A stretch of 64,000 bases of DNA from an uncultured Cryomorphaceae bacterium (GTDB lineage: Bacteria > Bacteroidota > Bacteroidia > Flavobacteriales > Schleiferiaceae), in contig CAJVWI010000006.1 of NCBI GenBank assembly GCA_913009655.1, forward strand, positions 1 through 64,000, written 5' to 3'. Positions 18,762 to 27,571 of this stretch are shown here, one piece after another; position 1 is the first letter of the stretch, and each line of letters begins with the position of its first letter. The notes below the pieces were generated by a model. That model worked only from the letters and a program-made list of their open reading frames with translations. It was not told the origin of the DNA and ran no database searches. The position numbers were made by a program, and so were the translations under genes.

Positions 18762-20726
18762 TTAGAACTTTAAGCTCAATCCAGCTCTAATTTGCCTTCC
18801 TGCTTGATATATATCTAATGCTCTGGCAAGTGAAAGATGGTGCGCATAAGCAACATCTGTGGCATTTAGAATCTCAACATTCCAAGAAAAATTTGAGGAA
18901 ATTTCTCCTGTTAGTGTTGCAGACCACAAACCGTAAGAAGGGGTTGCTCCTTCGAGGAATCTCTGCTCTGTTAGAGAAAGTCTATTCTGCTCCGCATAAA
19001 AGTCGTAATGAATTTCTGCATGAAACTTTTCAGGGATTATTTTAAATAGCAAGTGACTAGATACTCTACCTGGCGCAATAAAAGGCAATGCCAAACCATC
19101 TAAGTCGTTCGCCACTGTGAGTGAAGCCACGCTGTGGAAATGGATACGATCAGTTGGATTCCAACCGAATCTACCTTCAAGTCCATATAACAGGGCATCT
19201 TTTTGAAGGTAATAAAACCTCCATTCCCCACTATCGTCATTTGGACTAGTGTGAATAAAATCATTATAAAATTGATAATAAGCACCAACCTGAAGATTAA
19301 ACACCTTACTATTATAACCAATGTTGACTTCACCGTTAAGGAGCGTTTCAGGTGTTAAATTGGAATCTCCAACCTCAAATCTTCCTGCACCGATATGCGT
19401 CCCATATGCAAATCTCTCCTCGAGTTGTGGGCCCCTCGTTCCATAAGAAATTCGAGATTGAATGTCCAAATTTTTATTGAGTGAATGCACCCAATTTAGA
19501 AGAAATGACGCCCCTGAAAAGCCACCAATCTCTCCTCTCAAACCTGCAGATGTCTTATTTTTTCCTTTGGTATTACTGATATGGGCAAACAAAGCAGACT
19601 GAAACTGATTTTTATTTGGATATATGGTCTCCTCAGCATCCGCTCTATTCTGCAAAGATCTAAATTGTTGTTGAGCCCCAAGAGTTAATAAACCATTATC
19701 AGATACAGCTTTTTGTATTGAAGTTGTTTGCGTAGCACTGATTAAATTAAATCCTATATGAGGACCTTCTTCCTCATGACCCGGCTCATCTCCTGGCTCG
19801 TCTTCATCTTCATGATGCTCTTCAAACTCTGCACGAGAAGCCGACTGAAAACCAGTAATATTTCTTAAAACCCAATTACCGAACTTTCTATCTGATTCCC
19901 ATGAAATATTTGCATTTCTGACCTGCTGATCACCGTGCTCTTCCTCTTCATGACCCGGCTCGTCGCCTGGCTCATCATCATGATCATGACCACCTTCAGG
20001 CATTCCTAGAGTTCTAGCGACAAGAGAAGTTTTGAGTTTATGATTTGACTCCCCTGATTTAAACTCAGAAAGAACTCTAACTGATGCGGTACGACTGTGA
20101 GATCCATGAACAGTATCTCCATCTCCATCGATATATTCTGGATTTGCTCCAAAATACGCACCAGCATAATAAATTCCTTTTCCTGACCCTACATAATCAT
20201 ATTGACCACTCAACGGGGATCCGTTTGTACCTCCAAATAATTTGAAGGCGTTTGAGTTACCAGACTCTAAAGGTCTTAGATCCGAAAAATAAAGGACCCC
20301 TCCCATCGCATCTGTACCCAAGGCTAAGCTATTTGGGCCTGGAAGAATTTCTACATGATCAATTCCGAGAAGAGGAAAATCAAGACCATGATCAGCGCCC
20401 CCTTGCAAATTATCATACCTCCAGCCTTGATAAGCTGTCACAGTACGATATCCACCGAGACCACGGATAACAGGTTTCATTGTATGATCCCCAATACTCA
20501 TTAACTGAAGACTAGGGGATTGACGGGTCATATTAATCAAAGCAGAAGGGCCCTGGTCCGAAAGCGTCTTGGTTGGAACTGCAAGAATATTTGTGCTAAA
20601 AAAATTAGGGTTGTGTGAAATTCCTTCAACGGTAGCTTCACCCAGCTCTATAAAATATGTTTTTGATGAGTCTACCTGAGCCAATACAGATATTGGAAGT
20701 AACATCATCCAAATGAAATGTTTCAT
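18762..20726 (-). CDS. TonB-dependent outer-membrane receptor with His/Asp/Glu-rich loops, probable zinc or metal uptake
   Basis: A 654-residue receptor: signal 1-16 (PISVLAQ), plug domain about 35-155 (SPSLQLMSIGDHTMKPVIRGLGG, with the VIRGLGGYR and NSLALGTDAMGGVLYF signatures), then a beta barrel ending LSLKF, a typical C-terminal aromatic. Two acidic-His tracts lie in extracellular loops: residues 247-267 and 303-323, sharing an identical EPGDEPGHEEE block. Such loops are typical of ZnuD-like zinc receptors. A His-rich small gene lies just upstream on the same strand. I infer zinc or a similar divalent metal as the cargo; a siderophore or cobalamin is less likely given these loops. Confidence 0.85.
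   Translation of the reverse strand: MKHFIWMMLLPISVLAQVDSSKTYFIELGEATVEGISHNPNFFSTNILAVPTKTLSDQGPSALINMTRQSPSLQLMSIGDHTMKPVIRGLGGYRTVTAYQGWRYDNLQGGADHGLDFPLLGIDHVEILPGPNSLALGTDAMGGVLYFSDLRPLESGNSNAFKLFGGTNGSPLSGQYDYVGSGKGIYYAGAYFGANPEYIDGDGDTVHGSHSRTASVRVLSEFKSGESNHKLKTSLVARTLGMPEGGHDHDDEPGDEPGHEEEEHGDQQVRNANISWESDRKFGNWVLRNITGFQSASRAEFEEHHEDEDEPGDEPGHEEEGPHIGFNLISATQTTSIQKAVSDNGLLTLGAQQQFRSLQNRADAEETIYPNKNQFQSALFAHISNTKGKNKTSAGLRGEIGGFSGASFLLNWVHSLNKNLDIQSRISYGTRGPQLEERFAYGTHIGAGRFEVGDSNLTPETLLNGEVNIGYNSKVFNLQVGAYYQFYNDFIHTSPNDDSGEWRFYYLQKDALLYGLEGRFGWNPTDRIHFHSVASLTVANDLDGLALPFIAPGRVSSHLLFKIIPEKFHAEIHYDFYAEQNRLSLTEQRFLEGATPSYGLWSATLTGEISSNFSWNVEILNATDVAYAHHLSLARALDIYQAGRQIRAGLSLKF
19767..19799 (-). 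repeat. Copy 2 of the acidic-His block in the receptor
   Basis: Encodes EPGDEPGHEEE (residues 310-320), identical at protein level to residues 252-262 (19941-19973). The two copies are 58 codons apart and differ at several third positions, so the duplication is not recent or is constrained at protein level. Confidence 0.7.
19941..19973 (-). repeat. Copy 1 of the acidic-His block in the receptor
   Basis: Encodes EPGDEPGHEEE (residues 252-262), which is repeated at residues 310-320 (19767-19799). Both lie in predicted extracellular loops together with clustered histidines (GHDHDD just before, EHHEDED before the other copy). Confidence 0.7.
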
Positions 20727-20869
20727 CTTTAAAAAATTTGAAATAATAGTTATTAAATAATTAAATTCTGACTTTCACAAAGTATTCTTATTGAAAATTG
20801 AATACTCCGGCTACTGAAGCTTTATTTAAAAAAAAACTTCAATTCCAGGGAAAGAAATATTAAGAAAAC

Positions 20870-21202
20870 TTATATAATAACAGGGGGACCTCTCAAATAG
20901 TAATGAGTATTTCGACTCTTGAAATGGTCGCTATTGGATACTTCAAATACTCTTTCCTCAAAAACTATTAGTGGCAGCTCTAAAAAATGATTTTTCCAAT
21001 CCGAGAGCAACAAACTCGCATCTATCCAAGAACATGATTCTTTCGCCTCATGAAAATGAATATCGAAATCGTCACAAGCTATATTTTCTTCATGGTGATG
21101 GTGAAGAAGATGAATAGACGGTTCTACAATTCTTAGGAGAAATGTAGAAAAAGCAACAACAAAGAATAAGTGTCTAAACAATTTTTTTGCTTTATTAGGC
21201 AA
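20870..21202 (-). CDS. Small His-rich exported protein paired with the TonB receptor
   Basis: A 110-residue protein with a basic start (MPNKAKKLFR), a hydrophobic segment (about 11-25, HLFFVVAFSTFLLRIVE) and a His cluster SIHLLHHHHEEN (29-40), followed by CDDFDIHFHEAKESC. Cysteines 43 and 57 flank HFH. It ends with a proline-rich RGPPVII. Such small His-rich proteins often precede zinc TonB receptors in Bacteroidota and may bind or buffer the metal in the periplasm. It is 143 bases upstream of the receptor on the same strand and probably part of the same transcript. Confidence 0.6.
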   Translation of the reverse strand: MPNKAKKLFRHLFFVVAFSTFLLRIVEPSIHLLHHHHEENIACDDFDIHFHEAKESCSWIDASLLLSDWKNHFLELPLIVFEERVFEVSNSDHFKSRNTHYYLRGPPVII

Positions 21203-21218
21203 TAAATATAATCCACAG

Positions 21219-21226
21219 CAAATTTA
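21219..21226 (-). promoter_or_regulatory. Candidate -7 box (TAnnTTTG) for the His-rich / TonB pair
   Basis: The minus-strand sequence TAAATTTG matches the Bacteroidota -7 consensus, 17 bases before the ATG at 21202. No good TTG lies at the expected -33 position. An imperfect inverted repeat (21232-21257) lies directly upstream. Confidence 0.4.
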
Positions 21227-21231
21227 GGTAT

Positions 21232-21257
21232 GATACTTGATTAAACACTCGAGTATT
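21232..21257. promoter_or_regulatory. Imperfect inverted repeat between divergent genes, possible operator
   Basis: GATACTTGA (21232-21240) and TCGAGTATT (21249-21257) match in 7 of 9 paired positions across an 8-base spacer. It sits between the His-rich gene (minus) and the TTG-started lipoprotein gene (plus), beside a candidate -7 box. A metal-responsive repressor site (Zur-like) would fit the context, but the sequence is not a recognised Zur box. Confidence 0.3.
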
Positions 21258-21277
21258 AAAAAATAAATATTTTTATC

Positions 21278-21973
21278 TTGAAAAAGTTAGCATCCATTCT
21301 CATTTTAGGTTTAACAGTTGCCTCATGCACCAGCAATTTGAATAACTTGAACGAAGAGGCCTTTCATGGACGATGGTCATCTCATGTTAAATACAATGAG
21401 ACAATTTCTACTGATGTTGATTTTTCTGTTGATTCAATTACGGATTTAATCTTCTTAGAAGAAATGACCCTAGTTCGATATGAACTGAATGAGAAGAATG
21501 AAAGAATGCCCTCAACAGACTTTGCGGATAGAAGCACACCAGACAGAGACGTTATCCGCCAAAAGGTTATCGAACTCCTAGAAACTAATAGTACTTCCGT
21601 TGGACAATGGGTAAATCTTTCTGAGACTTATGAATTTAAATCGGAAAATACTAATCATGTGGTGATTTTCGAACAATCAAATTCAGGATTTGATTATCGC
21701 CTATTAGATGTAACAATAAATTCGGGGCTAGAATCTGAACAAATCGGTAAGAAACTTCAATATTATGCTCCAACGGGATGGACAGATTTTCAAGACAACC
21801 CATTCTTATTAATTAAATCTGTCAGAAAAAGCAACCGCATAGAAATGGAATCTGAAACTGCAAAGAGATATGATTTCAGGATGAATCCTGGACTGGGGTC
21901 AACTGGTCCTTTTAATATATCCGGTATAAAAACTGAAAGTACACTCTGTACCATTGAGCTTAGAGCTCTCTGA
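21278..21973 (+). CDS. Lipoprotein with TTG start, unknown
   Basis: The only plausible start is TTG at 21278: TTG AAA AAG TTA... gives MKKLASILILGLTVASC, a proper lipoprotein signal (Cys17). No ATG lies upstream before the divergent gene. The 231-residue chain begins NEEAFHGRWSSH, has a repeated Phe/Tyr-x-Trp pattern, and one long beta-rich region (TYEFKSENTNHVVIFEQSNSG). The early HGRWSS and mid-chain strands recall lipocalin-like domains, but I do not recognise a family. Divergent from the metal-uptake gene pair. Confidence 0.6.
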   Translation: MKKLASILILGLTVASCTSNLNNLNEEAFHGRWSSHVKYNETISTDVDFSVDSITDLIFLEEMTLVRYELNEKNERMPSTDFADRSTPDRDVIRQKVIELLETNSTSVGQWVNLSETYEFKSENTNHVVIFEQSNSGFDYRLLDVTINSGLESEQIGKKLQYYAPTGWTDFQDNPFLLIKSVRKSNRIEMESETAKRYDFRMNPGLGSTGPFNISGIKTESTLCTIELRAL

Positions 21974-21993
21974 GGCTTTGATCCTTAACCCCC

Positions 21994-23046
21994 CTACCCC
22001 ATTTTCCTTTCAGAAATTATAGACCTGTAAATCTTGTAGATTTTAGGAAATGTAAGTTTGAAGGATATGCCATTTACAATTAAAATTGCCACCAGGTTAA
22101 CTGCAGCAATTAAGATCATAATTGAAAATTGTGTTGAACGGACCAGCAATAGATAGCTTGAAAGATATATCACACTACCAATAATCACTTTAGTTAGAGT
22201 GATTTTTGATTCAATTCTTAAAGTTTTTGGTATCTCAGGAGTCTGATGTTCAGGTCCAAGGAATAGTAATTGTAACCCTCGTATAATCCCAAAATTTTTA
22301 AAATTATTTATCAATTTTTTAAAAAAGAATAATTGAATATTTAAAAAATCTTTATGAGGTATTGGGGCGGTCAAGCCATATTTAGGTTTTTCATCAAGGG
22401 GAGCGTATGTTTTAAATATTTTATCCCAAATTATGAATACACCGCCATAGTTGCGATCTAAATATTTAGAATTACTCCCATGGTGAACCTTGTGATGGTC
22501 TGGCATCACAAATATTTTTTCCAAAATAGGAATTGAGGATATAAATTCCGTGTGAAGATAAAATTGATAAAATGCGTTTAAATAGATAGAAATAATAACG
22601 AATTCTATTGGAAAACCAAGTAGAATAAGGCTTGAATACATTGTCGTTCTTACGATAAATCCTAAAGGACTAAGTGCAAAGTTTACACTCAAGTTGTACT
22701 CATTACTTTGATGATGTATCAAGTGCATTCCCCACACTAGTGATATTCGGTGGCATGTTACATGAAACACATACCATATAAAGTCTATTGCTATGAAGGT
22801 TAAGACAAAAGTCCATGCGTTGGAGGCGAATTCATCGATAATCGAATAATTCAAAGTTCCATTAAGGAGTATAAGGCCTTTTTCGGTAAGGTATAGACCG
22901 ACCAATCGATCAAAAAAACCTAAAGACATATTTAAAGCTGTTTGATCCAAAGTAATCTTAGCTTTTTTCTTGAATAAGAAATAAAACTCTAAAACAAAAA
23001 AGAATAAACCAATAGGGACAATTATGAATAATAAACCAAGAGTCAT
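21994..23046 (-). CDS. Sterol desaturase / fatty acid hydroxylase superfamily membrane enzyme
   Basis: A 350-residue multi-span protein with the four-histidine-cluster signature: HVTCH (95-99), HLIHH (108-112) and HHKVHH (184-189) after LEKIFVMPDH, typical of the di-iron FA_hydroxylase domain. Helices lie before, between and after (about 4-26, 78-95, 125-165, and two near the C-terminus). The family covers sterol C-4/C-5 oxidation, fatty acid 2-hydroxylation, alkylglycerol monooxygenase and carotenoid hydroxylation. The FMPDHHKVHHG wording resembles the alkylglycerol-monooxygenase-like bacterial group. The substrate is not assignable. Confidence 0.85.
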   Translation of the reverse strand: MTLGLLFIIVPIGLFFFVLEFYFLFKKKAKITLDQTALNMSLGFFDRLVGLYLTEKGLILLNGTLNYSIIDEFASNAWTFVLTFIAIDFIWYVFHVTCHRISLVWGMHLIHHQSNEYNLSVNFALSPLGFIVRTTMYSSLILLGFPIEFVIISIYLNAFYQFYLHTEFISSIPILEKIFVMPDHHKVHHGSNSKYLDRNYGGVFIIWDKIFKTYAPLDEKPKYGLTAPIPHKDFLNIQLFFFKKLINNFKNFGIIRGLQLLFLGPEHQTPEIPKTLRIESKITLTKVIIGSVIYLSSYLLLVRSTQFSIMILIAAVNLVAILIVNGISFKLTFPKIYKIYRSIISERKMG

Positions 23047-23238
23047 GAACTAAATTCTAGATAATGGATTAAGAATATCAATTTTATGAAATTTTTACAC
23101 CAAATAGAAATTAAAATCTACTAAAGGAATCAAATGTTTTAATAAAAATTAATAAGCCTAGATATAAAGTCAATAAATTAATATTTGAATTATTCATTAT
23201 TCCGCGAATAATCAGAATAAGAGACTGTCAAAAATTAA

Positions 23239-23481
23239 TTAAATATTTTTTTGATTCTTTGATTTGAAACGAATAGCAGGGCTTATGCTCTTATGTTTAG
23301 TTACTCTTCCTTTGACTCTTTCTCTCCACATCTTAAAAGAAGACTCTTTCATATTCTCTCTCATTATTTTTCTCACATCATTCTCCTTAAGACCGAATTG
23401 AAACTCAATTGCCTCAAATGGAGTTCTATCCTCCCAAGCCATTTCTATAATTCTATCAATTTGAACTATTGTAAACTTCAC
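23239..23481 (-). CDS. DUF2805 / TIGR03643 family protein
   Basis: An 80-residue protein that matches the family closely: the start IVQIDRIIEMAWEDRTPFEA, then IEFQFGLKENDVRKIMRENM and FKMWRERVKGR. The helix-turn-helix-like pattern (RTPFEAIEFQFGLKENDVRKIM) suggests DNA binding. The family function is unknown, though it is widespread in Bacteroidota and Proteobacteria and tends to sit near photoreceptor and repair genes. Here it is monocistronic and divergent from the GDSL lipoprotein gene. Confidence 0.8.
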   Translation of the reverse strand: MKFTIVQIDRIIEMAWEDRTPFEAIEFQFGLKENDVRKIMRENMKESSFKMWRERVKGRVTKHKSISPAIRFKSKNQKNI

Positions 23482-23547
23482 CTCTAAACAAATTTATTAT
23501 CTGCAGTTATAATATCTTAGTACTAAGATAAATCCTAGATAACTGAT

Positions 23548-24288
23548 ATGAAAAATCTATTCCTTGCTTTTCTGATAATTCTCACATCTTGCGACAAAAG
23601 CACTCCTCCTGAAAGTGAACCTATTAATAAGATTATGTCGCTTGGGGCTTCTCGAGTTGAGGGAAATAAACCAAATTTCACTGGCCCTTTGTTAGCTGAT
23701 GAATTTGTAAGTTTTAGATATGATCTATGGAAAAACATAGTTCAAGACGGATGGCAATTTGATTTTATTGGATCTGAATTTGATTACAGCGATTATCCTG
23801 ATTTTAATAATCTATCTTTTGATGGCGACCATCAAGGAAATAGTGGGTTCACAGCAGAAGACATTGCCATAGGTATCGAAAGCTGGCTTGAAGAAACAGG
23901 AGCTTCAGATGTTGTATTATTTAGCTCCCCAGGGGGTAATGACGCTCTACTAAACATGCCCTACAATGCCATAATTGAAGATATTAAATATATCATTGAT
24001 GCATTGCAAGCATCAAATCCAGAGGTAACGATCTTATTAGAACAGATGGCTCCTGCACATTCAGACGACATGACAACAGAGCTTACCACCTACATTAATG
24101 ATCTTCATCAAGATATATTGTTAATTGCTTCAAACAAAACAACTTCAACATCCCAAGTAATAGCGATAGATATGTTTACCGGTTTTAGTGATGCCATGCT
24201 TGCAGATGACGTACATTACAATGGACTAGGGGCAAAGTTTATTGCAGATCGGTATTACTCTGTCCTAATCAATTTTCTAGAAGGATAG
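23548..24288 (+). CDS. SGNH/GDSL-type hydrolase lipoprotein
   Basis: A 246-residue lipoprotein (Cys15 in FLIILTSC). Block I is KIMSLGASRVEG, with Ser in place of the GDS nucleophile region (LGASR). Block II region GDHQGNSGFTAED and block III VVLFSSPGGNDALLN (the G-x-ND motif) are present. Block V is LADDVHYNGLGAKFIAD (Asp-x-x-His). These match esterase/lipase SGNH folds. The N-terminal block has Ser but the order L-G-A-S-R deviates from GDSL, which is common in this family. Probably an esterase acting on carbohydrate or lipid esters. Confidence 0.8.
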   Translation: MKNLFLAFLIILTSCDKSTPPESEPINKIMSLGASRVEGNKPNFTGPLLADEFVSFRYDLWKNIVQDGWQFDFIGSEFDYSDYPDFNNLSFDGDHQGNSGFTAEDIAIGIESWLEETGASDVVLFSSPGGNDALLNMPYNAIIEDIKYIIDALQASNPEVTILLEQMAPAHSDDMTTELTTYINDLHQDILLIASNKTTSTSQVIAIDMFTGFSDAMLADDVHYNGLGAKFIADRYYSVLINFLEG

Positions 24289-24328
24289 CTATAAATTAAA
24301 TCCCATCACAACCTGAGCTTAAAGAAGT

Positions 24329-24400
24329 CTACGCGCAAGAACAATCTGAACCACAAGAACAACTTGAGCCGCAATTACATTTATCACAGTTACAATCCAT
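24329..24400 (-). CDS. 23-residue Cys-rich peptide, metallothionein-like
   Basis: ATG at 24400 to TAG at 24329-24331. The peptide is MDCNCDKCNCGSS followed by CSCGSDCSCA: eight cysteines in 23 residues (positions 3, 5, 8, 10, 14, 16, 20, 22), spaced as CxC, CxC, CxC, CxC pairs. The rest is Ser, Gly, Asp, Asn, Lys, with no aromatic or hydrophobic residue. This is the composition of a metallothionein, able to bind about two to three Zn/Cu/Cd ions if all thiolates take part. Cys codons are TGT and TGC mixed. The frame is free of stops across the whole spacing. No promoter is visible. It lies between the GDSL lipoprotein and a methyltransferase gene. Confidence 0.55.
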   Translation of the reverse strand: MDCNCDKCNCGSSCSCGSDCSCA

Positions 24401-24555
24401 TTTTCTAATGTAAGCATTTAAATTTTATTAATTGAGCCTAAATCAATAATAATAAAATCTTAATCGCTTATAATTCAACATTTTATAATTAGAGTGATAT
24501 CATAATTATGATGAGATTTAAAAGCATTAAATTCGCCTAATAAATAATATTACTC

Positions 24556-25449
24556 TTGAAATATCTATATCATTTTATAAATCCCATGAACTGGTGGAGA
24601 GCCTCCCAATTCAAAAAATCAAATGATAAATATGATAAATCCAGTTATGATCTAGAGTTAAACCTTTACTCAAAACTTTTAAAAAACGATATGCTTCATT
24701 ATGGGTATTTCCAAAACCCTGATATAAAACCTGAAGACATATCGATAAAACAAATTGAAGATGCTCAGGTTTTATATTCTCAACAAATAATAAACCAAAT
24801 AAAGCGAAAAAATGAATCCATTCTTGATGTTGGTTGCGGAATGGGAGGTCTTGCAAAAATCATCAATGAAAAAAACCTTAATGTCGAGGTTCTAACTCCA
24901 AATAAAAATCAAATTGACCATATTCAATCCAAGTACCCTGAATTAAAATTCTACCATTCAAAGTTTGAAGACATGAATACGAGTGAGTCTTACGGAACGG
25001 TAATTCATTCAGAATCTCTTCAGTATATAGATCTCGACGAAGCTTTTAAAATGGTTGAAATCATTATTAATTCCGGAGGTCAATGGATTATCACGGACTA
25101 CTTTAGAATAAATTCATCGGGAATCAATAAAAGTGGTCATAAGTTGCATGATTTTCTGAAGAAAGTGGAAGAATATGGATGGAAGATCACCTTTCAGCAA
25201 GACATAACAGGTAATGTGATGCCAACGTTAAAGTTCATAAACATGTACGCTGAGAGATTTTTATTTCCCTTAAAGCATTTTGCCTTTGAAAAACTACGGT
25301 TTAAGAATGCAAAGCTATTTTTCATGACAAAGTTAATTAGAGATTCAATGGAAAGAAAAATTCACAAAGAAATGGCTTCAGTTGACATCAAGCAGTTTCA
25401 AAATGAAAAGAAGTATCTACTTTTTGTCTTGGAAAAAAAATCTAATTAA
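24556..25449 (+). CDS. SAM-dependent methyltransferase, CFA-synthase-like
   Basis: A 297-residue protein. The only fitting start is TTG at 24556 (MKYLYHFINPMNWWRASQF); no ATG gives the same N-terminal hydrophobic/aromatic segment. SAM motif I is ILDVGCGMGGLAKI (about 93-106) and motif II NVEVLTPNKNQID. The later SEDLQYIDLDEAFKMVEIII layout (as ESLQYIDLDE) and a long helical C-terminus follow the cyclopropane-fatty-acyl-phospholipid synthase / ubiE-like group. No zinc ligands for a CFA domain are clear. Substrate: possibly a lipid or glycan. Upstream context (a Cys-rich peptide) gives no hint. Confidence 0.75.
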   Translation: MKYLYHFINPMNWWRASQFKKSNDKYDKSSYDLELNLYSKLLKNDMLHYGYFQNPDIKPEDISIKQIEDAQVLYSQQIINQIKRKNESILDVGCGMGGLAKIINEKNLNVEVLTPNKNQIDHIQSKYPELKFYHSKFEDMNTSESYGTVIHSESLQYIDLDEAFKMVEIIINSGGQWIITDYFRINSSGINKSGHKLHDFLKKVEEYGWKITFQQDITGNVMPTLKFINMYAERFLFPLKHFAFEKLRFKNAKLFFMTKLIRDSMERKIHKEMASVDIKQFQNEKKYLLFVLEKKSN

Positions 25450-25462
25450 TTCACAGCTCATC

Positions 25463-25723
25463 TCAATATTTACACCAATCAAAATCCGCATAGGAATTAT
25501 ATTCTCCCCCATTACTAAAAGCATACAGCCCCAAGTAAGCTCCCGTGTATCCGTGACTTAAAAGAATGTCATTTCCAACTTTGTGAAAATCCTGAAATGT
25601 CTTACCATTATCAGATGAATATTGAAATATATAATCATCACCAATCGAATTCAACTTCAATATTACTTCCCCATTAAAATCATTTAGAAAGTTTCTAATT
25701 ATGGACCATTCAAAGATATAAGA
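25463..25723 (-). pseudogene. Remnant of a GH43-type glycoside hydrolase C-terminal domain
   Basis: The minus strand is open from just after a TAA (25724-25726) to TAA at 25463-25465, with no ATG. The frame reads SYIFEWSIIRNFLNDFNGEV, then ILKLNSIGDDYIFQYSSDNG, and ends GAYLGLYAFSNGGEYNSYADFDWCKY. The end (GAYLGLYA...NYADFDW) and the YSSDNGKTFQ strand match the beta-sandwich domain (DUF1349/beta-xylosidase-like) that closes many GH43 enzymes. The rest of a GH43 gene is absent upstream, where a 130-base AT-rich spacer begins. A TTG at 25660 is the only late start codon. I call it a decayed gene fragment. Confidence 0.55.
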
Positions 25724-27288: not shown

Positions 27289-27520
27289 CGCTTCAAATAA
27301 AGCAGTTTACTTAGCTGCTAAGGGGCTTACCTTAATTCGTATAGCAATTAATTTATTTTTCTGTTCGCAGGTTTTGTTGATATGGATTGGGAAACAGTAA
27401 GGGTTGCTTAAGCGATTCATATTTTTCATGGTATAGCGACCTTAAGTGGCTTAATGATATTTTTACGGTTCATGACTGGAAAAGTAGAGGTAAAATATAC
27501 TTTACGCATTTTATCGCAAT
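27289..27520. other. Gene-free spacer after the PhzF gene
   Basis: No supported gene. One plus-strand frame at 27385-27571 has protein-like residues (YFSWYSDLKWLNDIFTVHDW) but no good start and is cut through by the terminator at 27521-27553. It may be a decayed fragment or chance. Confidence 0.35.
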
Positions 27521-27553
27521 AAAAAAGCCCGCTCGATTGAGCGGGCTTTTTTT
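27521..27553. terminator. Strong bidirectional terminator
   Basis: AAAAAAGCCCGCTC (27521-27534) and GAGCGGGCTTTTTT (27539-27552) form a perfect stem with a GATT loop. Flanked by A-tract and T-tract, it can serve the PhzF transcript and the minus-strand SnoaL-like gene. Confidence 0.9.
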
Positions 27554-27571
27554 ATTTAGTATTTAATTGAA

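Follow-up and report, generated by a model that had tools for sequence, protein, structure and literature searches.

A conserved 23-residue frame with eight cysteines in a Flavobacteriales lineage: a predicted minimal metallothionein-like peptide

The reading frame and its gene neighbours

In the stretch of 64,000 nucleotides that we analyzed (the window), a gene of 23 codons and a stop codon occupies positions 24329–24400 on the minus strand. Read from 24400 to 24329, it runs from ATG to TAG and is translated as MDCNCDKCNCGSSCSCGSDCSCA, whereas the matching frame on the plus strand contains two stops. A preliminary description of this DNA had reported a 23-residue peptide with eight cysteines without naming a strand; translation of the minus strand reproduced both the length and the positions of the cysteines (3, 5, 8, 10, 14, 16, 20 and 22), which form four CxC pairs (3–5, 8–10, 14–16 and 20–22). 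The other residues are Met, Asp, Asn, Ser, Gly, one Lys and one Ala. Metallothioneins are defined as very short proteins with about one-third Cys, CxC or CC motifs and few or no aromatic residues, and the peptide has this composition: 8 of its 23 residues are Cys, all arranged in CxC pairs, and neither an aromatic residue nor His is present. The window contains 804 ORFs with a length of at least 20 aa, and more than two CxC motifs were found in this frame only. We also generated 100 second-order Markov versions of the window, and none of the 101,429 ORFs that they contained had four CxC motifs; likewise, none had a Cys fraction of 8/23. The peptide is not explained by chance.

Upstream of the peptide, a divergent intergenic region of 155 nt (24401–24555) lies between its ATG and the TTG of a SAM-dependent methyltransferase gene (24556–25449, plus strand; Methyltransf_25 and CMAS above the Pfam cut-off), so placed that the two genes are head-to-head, and the promoters of both are presumed to be located there. 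On the other side, a GDSL-like hydrolase gene (23548–24288, plus strand; GDSL matches below the Pfam cut-off) is convergent with the peptide, with 40 nt between the two stop codons. We counted five promoter-like sites in the interval 24200–24700, compared with 3.0 ± 1.7 in shuffled sequences, which is the chance level; a sigma-70-like site on the minus strand (24478–24449) is also at the chance level, and the scan of this interval detected no terminator-like site. No metal regulator or exporter family was found among the ten neighbour proteins scanned (18.7–28.2 kb).

Two relatives of the window's genome (G000), designated G011 and G013, bear the peptide, and the head-to-head arrangement with the methyltransferase gene is present in all three genomes. 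The methyltransferase of G013 (L003, 481–1371) is 66% identical to that of the window, and that of G011 is a 64-residue fragment at a contig end with 88–89% identity. On the peptide's other side, G000 and G011 have the GDSL-like hydrolase gene and G013 has an ammonium transporter gene (PF00909 match, 1.1e-112), both of which run toward the peptide. Because the transporter gene takes the place of the GDSL-like gene in G013, the latter falls outside the conserved unit. Most genes in the window between 18.8 and 40.6 kb have counterparts in the same order, but inverted, on contig C6 of G013; the GDSL-like gene and those at about 31.4–35.8 kb lack counterparts there, and C6 in turn carries the ammonium transporter gene and two small genes that are not whole in the window.

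Several minor features of this region were also observed. The apparent start of the methyltransferase gene is TTG at the same position in the window (24556) and in G013 (L003, 1371), and an internal ATG (24586) is not conserved in G013. A 65-aa frame at 25463–25660 (minus strand) matches the end of a GH43_C2 domain; its counterpart in G013 is a portion of a family-43 glycoside hydrolase of 569 aa (L043, 10517–12226), which suggests that a glycoside hydrolase gene has apparently decayed in the window. Similarly, small frames at 27307–27566 match pieces of a 149-aa ORF of G013 (L043, 7853–8302; no Pfam match) and its antisense, apparently representing another gene remnant. The divergence between window positions 18762–24288 and L044 of G011 is mosaic: protein identity is 98% for both the TonB-dependent receptor and the GDSL-like hydrolase, 64–81% for three genes between them and 95% for the DUF2805 gene. 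This pattern suggests recombination within the genus.

Conservation of the frame and distribution of its carriers

The preliminary description had proposed conservation of the frame in relatives and its substitution pattern as checks, and both came out in favour of a gene. The frame recurs at the same locus in G011 and G013 with ATG and stop intact. The G011 protein is identical, and the two differences over 72 nt are synonymous changes at third positions (TGC/TGT and GCG/GCT); in the same two genomes, two in-frame codons just 5΄ of the ATG differ in sense. The G013 peptide, MGCNCDNCNCGQSCSCGSDCSCC, shares 19 of 23 residues (83%) with MDCNCDKCNCGSSCSCGSDCSCA, retains all eight cysteines and has a ninth at its C-terminus. 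No protein sequence other than these two was found and, as the DNA of G000 and G011 is almost the same at this locus, there is in essence one pair for independent comparison.

For this pair, G000 and G013, 19 of the 72 nt differ, and 12 of the 19 differences are at third positions (binomial P = 0.007). The pattern is of the coding type, with 8 codons changed synonymously and 4 non-synonymously; by the NG86 method, dN was 0.18 and dS was not computable. When the 19 changes were placed at random, under a neutral model in which start and stop were held fixed and no transition bias was included, an open frame with four or fewer residue changes was obtained in none of 200,000 trials, and all cysteines survived in 18 of 200,000. 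The flanks of the frame (155 nt upstream in G000 and 129 nt in G013, and 100 nt downstream) aligned no better than shuffled sequence. This comparison shows, at the level of the DNA, that the eight cysteines, the ATG and the stop were preserved through a divergence that erased the similarity of the surrounding non-coding DNA.

As a control, we considered 26 ORFs of 20–60 aa that lie outside larger genes in the syntenic block. Seven had a tblastn match in G013 at E ≤ 0.01, and identity above 80% was found for the peptide frame only (over 22 of 23 residues); the search was run uncorrected for composition, a setting that favours Cys-rich frames. The second-strongest match, at 27426–27509, is antisense over a stretch homologous to the 149-aa ORF of G013. 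The +1 frame is also open across the 72 nt in all three genomes; however, 11 of its 23 residues are shared by G000 and G013, against 19 of 23 for the peptide frame, and its start in G000 is absent from G013. Taken as a whole, the sequence comparisons argue strongly for a real, conserved coding frame. We rejected a convergent origin of the G013 match as implausible, given 83% identity at the same head-to-head position, and we rejected an RNA element, given the lack of an Rfam match and the third-position bias of the changes.

The peptide was found in 3 of 60 genomes searched, including the window's own, by a procedure whose first pass could miss relatives with other spacing. All three belong to the same genus, of which 22 genomes were covered; the G011 assembly is 79% complete, and the peptide is close to the end of its contig. 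With a two-row profile, the true carriers numbered three among 88 genomes of the family, where 9 genomes gave a match of any kind at E ≤ 1, and three among 395 genomes of the order, where 16 did so at the same threshold. Among 395 genomes of the phylum, 6 matched at E ≤ 0.1, and one of these, the window itself, is a true carrier. The genomes of the order and of the phylum were drawn from larger groups. The other matches, in 6 of the 9 family, 13 of the 16 order and 5 of the 6 phylum genomes, were rejected; they have at most one CxC per matched stretch, and several are interrupted by stops or fall within, or antisense to, longer frames. Each rejected match was inspected at the match, except L022–L025, four further copies of the L018 match (G282), which were scanned for CxC only. 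A scan of GTDB r220 contigs based on two short patterns returned one true match, on CALKDS010000061.1 from an uncultured Flavobacteriales bacterium; a match in Yinghuangia (L027) was discarded as a single CSCGSDC inside a longer frame. None of 45 pattern matches in viral contigs was confirmed as a relative, and no relative of the peptide was found in phages and plasmids.

At E ≤ 1e-20, the methyltransferase gene is present in the three genus genomes that carry the peptide (3 of 22); it was also found in 2 of 88 genomes of the family (E ≤ 1e-40) and 2 of 391 genomes of the order (E ≤ 1e-30). A like restriction applies to further genes of the block: the fatty-acid hydroxylase is 76 and 81% identical in two genomes, compared with 34–38% in five others, and the PhzF-family gene occurs in G000 and G013 only (2 of 22 genus genomes), the G011 contig ending before its position. 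The three carriers therefore resemble a small clade with a block in common. Since these other genes are also close only within the trio, the co-occurrence of peptide and methyltransferase carries little weight and does not by itself link the two functionally.

Relation to described metallothioneins and predicted function

We compared the peptide with described metallothionein families. No Pfam or NCBIfam model matched it above the cut-off; no NCBIfam model appeared at all, and the sole Pfam line was Metallothio_5 (PF02067; E = 0.11, 13 bits against a cut-off of 25). The SmtA-type family (PF02069, Metallothio_Pro) matched neither the peptide nor any of the 22 genus genomes, and was detected in 1 of 14 control genomes, the positive being Synechococcus elongatus. 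SmtA-type metallothioneins have His ligands. SmtA, BmtA and PmtA resemble the peptide in being bacterial and Cys-rich, and their known members bind metal, but they are about twice as long (a 51-position profile), and PMC10612145 describes a GATA-type zinc-finger fold for them.

In a phmmer search of the PDB, the closest solved structure by sequence was a cadmium metallothionein (6qk5, E = 0.28), and the Neurospora metallothionein (1t2y) was not returned. By BLASTP, the latter is identical at 8 of 9 residues over CNCGSSCSC (E = 5e-4, as a single pair), with a second alignment of 18 columns at E = 0.047. The fungal family-8 copper metallothioneins to which it belongs (Neurospora crassa and Agaricus bisporus) resemble the peptide in size, small polar spacers and absence of aromatic residues; however, they have seven cysteines, mostly in CxC pairs (25 residues in 1t2y), with the spacing CxC-x5-CxC-x3-CxC-x2-C, compared with CxC-x2-CxC-x3-CxC-x3-CxC in the peptide. 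The peptide thus has neither the seven cysteines nor the spacing of the Neurospora type, and full-length similarity is lacking. The likeness is confined to nine low-complexity residues, between a fungus and a bacterium, and is what many CxC-rich peptides would show against known metallothioneins. Convergence on a low-complexity layout is therefore likelier than homology, judging from the alignments.

The metallothionein of the fungus Heliscus lugdunensis has 24 residues and prefers cadmium, and the copper metallothionein of Mycobacterium tuberculosis, named MymT, has about 53 residues. The former is described as small and as having eight cysteines (PMC13107397), like the peptide, to which we liken it by description; the latter is mentioned as a bacterial copper metallothionein (PMC10612145), and we set it apart, again by description, as longer and from another lineage. 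According to PMC4755600, the Neurospora metallothionein, at 26 residues, was once considered the shortest of all. By sequence, the peptide is a member of no described family among those compared here (Pfam, NCBIfam, SmtA-type and Neurospora-type).

Our preferred reading, which we consider likely, is that of a real gene of very small size encoding a minimal metallothionein-like peptide, with metal binding predicted. This reading is probable from composition and selection on every Cys, all eight cysteines having been kept in both G011 and G013. On these two grounds, the suggestion of a minimal metallothionein in the preliminary description stands as the best-supported function of what is, by all indications, a conserved coding frame; its argument from a nearby receptor is weak (see below).

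Four other readings were weighed. The frame might encode a selected small protein that uses its cysteines differently, as a delivery chaperone for a single client, as a redox or sulfide-trapping peptide, or as an iron-sulfur cluster donor. The cysteines would be conserved whatever the metal, and the data do not fix the ligand; nevertheless, CxC throughout with small polar spacers is the metallothionein layout, usual in metallothioneins and not in single-site chaperones or CxxC redox proteins, and we regard this possibility as improbable.

A very short frame that has its own upstream region and is dominated by Cys codons could also be a translated and selected regulatory leader, sensing the supply of cysteine or metal and thereby controlling a downstream gene. 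Cysteine-attenuation leaders exist, and the next larger gene on the same strand is the DUF2805 gene in both arrangements of the locus. Metal-sensing upstream frames are known as well, as described for CruR (PMC9426467). However, the DUF2805 gene begins about 0.85 kb further on in the window, and in either arrangement the peptide is followed by a gene on the opposite strand (GDSL-like in G000 and G011, ammonium transporter in G013), so no regulated same-strand gene lies directly downstream. Because this neighbour is convergent and differs among carriers, the peptide is not the leader of the directly downstream gene. Moreover, no Rfam element or terminator-like site was found at the locus and the peptide lacks a RAPP/RGPP arrest motif, which leaves a leader very unlikely.

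The chance that the peptide is instead the precursor of a ribosomally made, modified product, methylated by the head-to-head methyltransferase or cross-linked through its cysteines, appears to be similarly slim and, if anything, slimmer. The methyltransferase does adjoin the peptide in every carrier and shares its distribution within the genus; however, genomes that have other block genes in common would be expected to show such co-occurrence in any case. Peptides of the MNIO or bufferin type have a leader region and an adjoining gene for the modifying enzyme, whereas here one residue follows the Met before the first Cys, leaving no leader region. The ten neighbours (18.7–28.2 kb), the G013 ammonium transporter and the window PhzF protein were scanned and gave no match to MNIO, radical-SAM, lanthionine or YcaO families. 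The methyltransferase, the only candidate modifying enzyme, is similar to methyltransferases of the cyclopropane-synthase, N-methyl- and small-molecule types. Finally, that the frame is not a gene but a chance Cys-rich intergenic frame is scarcely tenable: the narrow distribution (3 of 22 genus and 3 of 88 family genomes) and the open +1 frame would be compatible with it, but frame, start, stop and every Cys are kept with coding-type substitutions between flanks that cannot be aligned, and nothing alike occurred among the simulated ORFs.

On the metallothionein reading, the best interpretation is a predicted minimal cytosolic thiolate buffer for Cu(I), Zn or Cd. Proteins of this class bind several d10 metal ions in thiolate clusters, and metal usually induces their expression. 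The peptide would be transcribed from its own promoter and, as it has no signal sequence, would probably be made in, and remain in, the reducing cytosol. Since it offers no side chains for a core, it would fold only on metal, an unstructured thiolate ligand wrapping round a metal-thiolate cluster. Eight thiolates would suffice for two tetrahedral divalent ions (Zn or Cd), or three if thiolates are shared. For Cu(I), the capacity might be about six ions, by analogy with the Neurospora peptide, whose seven cysteines are accompanied by an uptake of six Cu(I) according to PMC13107397. Formation of such a cluster would buffer excess or transient metal. We further consider it moderately probable that the peptide represents a bacterial metallothionein family not included in Pfam or NCBIfam, with 23 residues and eight Cys, which arose in one small-genome lineage of Flavobacteriales and converged on the smallest fungal copper metallothioneins in size and layout.

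If the peptide binds metal, a bacterial metallothionein can be just 23 residues long, among the shortest natural metallothioneins, and a bacterium has independently arrived at the same layout as the smallest fungal copper peptides. Being accessible to chemical synthesis, it would then also serve as a model for minimal metal-thiolate clusters. Frames this small are passed over by gene callers, which suggests that, if the reading is true, such peptides have been overlooked in bacteria and that there is reason to seek other Cys-rich frames below annotation length. In the literature on metallothionein together with bacteria, small proteins, small reading frames or Bacteroidota, the titles and abstract openings examined contained no such peptide, which does not show it to be unreported.

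The TonB-dependent receptor and the frame that precedes it

A TonB-dependent receptor with His-rich loops is encoded at 18762–20726 on the minus strand. Its NCBIfam matches are all below the cut-off and include ZnuD (61.6 bits against 950) and haem receptors. The preliminary description had taken this nearby His-rich receptor to favour metal buffering by the peptide; this turned out to be a weak argument, as the receptor is present in 17 of 22 genus genomes (E ≤ 1e-60), compared with 3 of 22 for the peptide. The genome G018 is a case in point. Its receptor is the next closest after those of the three carriers (88% over 511 of 653 residues) and is likewise preceded by a small ORF, but the genome gave no match to the peptide. 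The 12.3 kb around the G018 receptor contain no frame with three or more CxC motifs, and the 7.6 kb from the small ORF to the contig end contain no ORF of at least 60 aa that matches ORFs of the window or of G013 (E ≤ 1e-6). We therefore rejected a specific link between peptide and receptor; the receptor lends the region a metal flavour and has no specific link to the peptide.

Directly upstream of the receptor gene, on the same strand, lies a His/Cys-rich ORF of 110 aa (20870–21202, minus strand) that ends in YYLRGPPVII and has no Pfam or NCBIfam match. In 14 of the 17 genomes of the genus that have the receptor, such an ORF carries an RGPP motif (RAPP in G017) among its 12 C-terminal residues; the motif was absent from the scans of G002, G003 and G004, the G002 receptor being split over two contigs, with its second piece (L062) outside the scan. 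RAPP/RGPP is described in PMC12992588 as a motif of translation-arrest peptides, in frames upstream of TonB receptors, and CruR of Bordetella, to which we liken the 110-aa ORF, is described in PMC9426467 as a metal-sensing upstream frame. These features suggest that the 110-aa ORF is probably a metal-sensing translation-arrest frame, which may be more consequential at this locus than the peptide itself.
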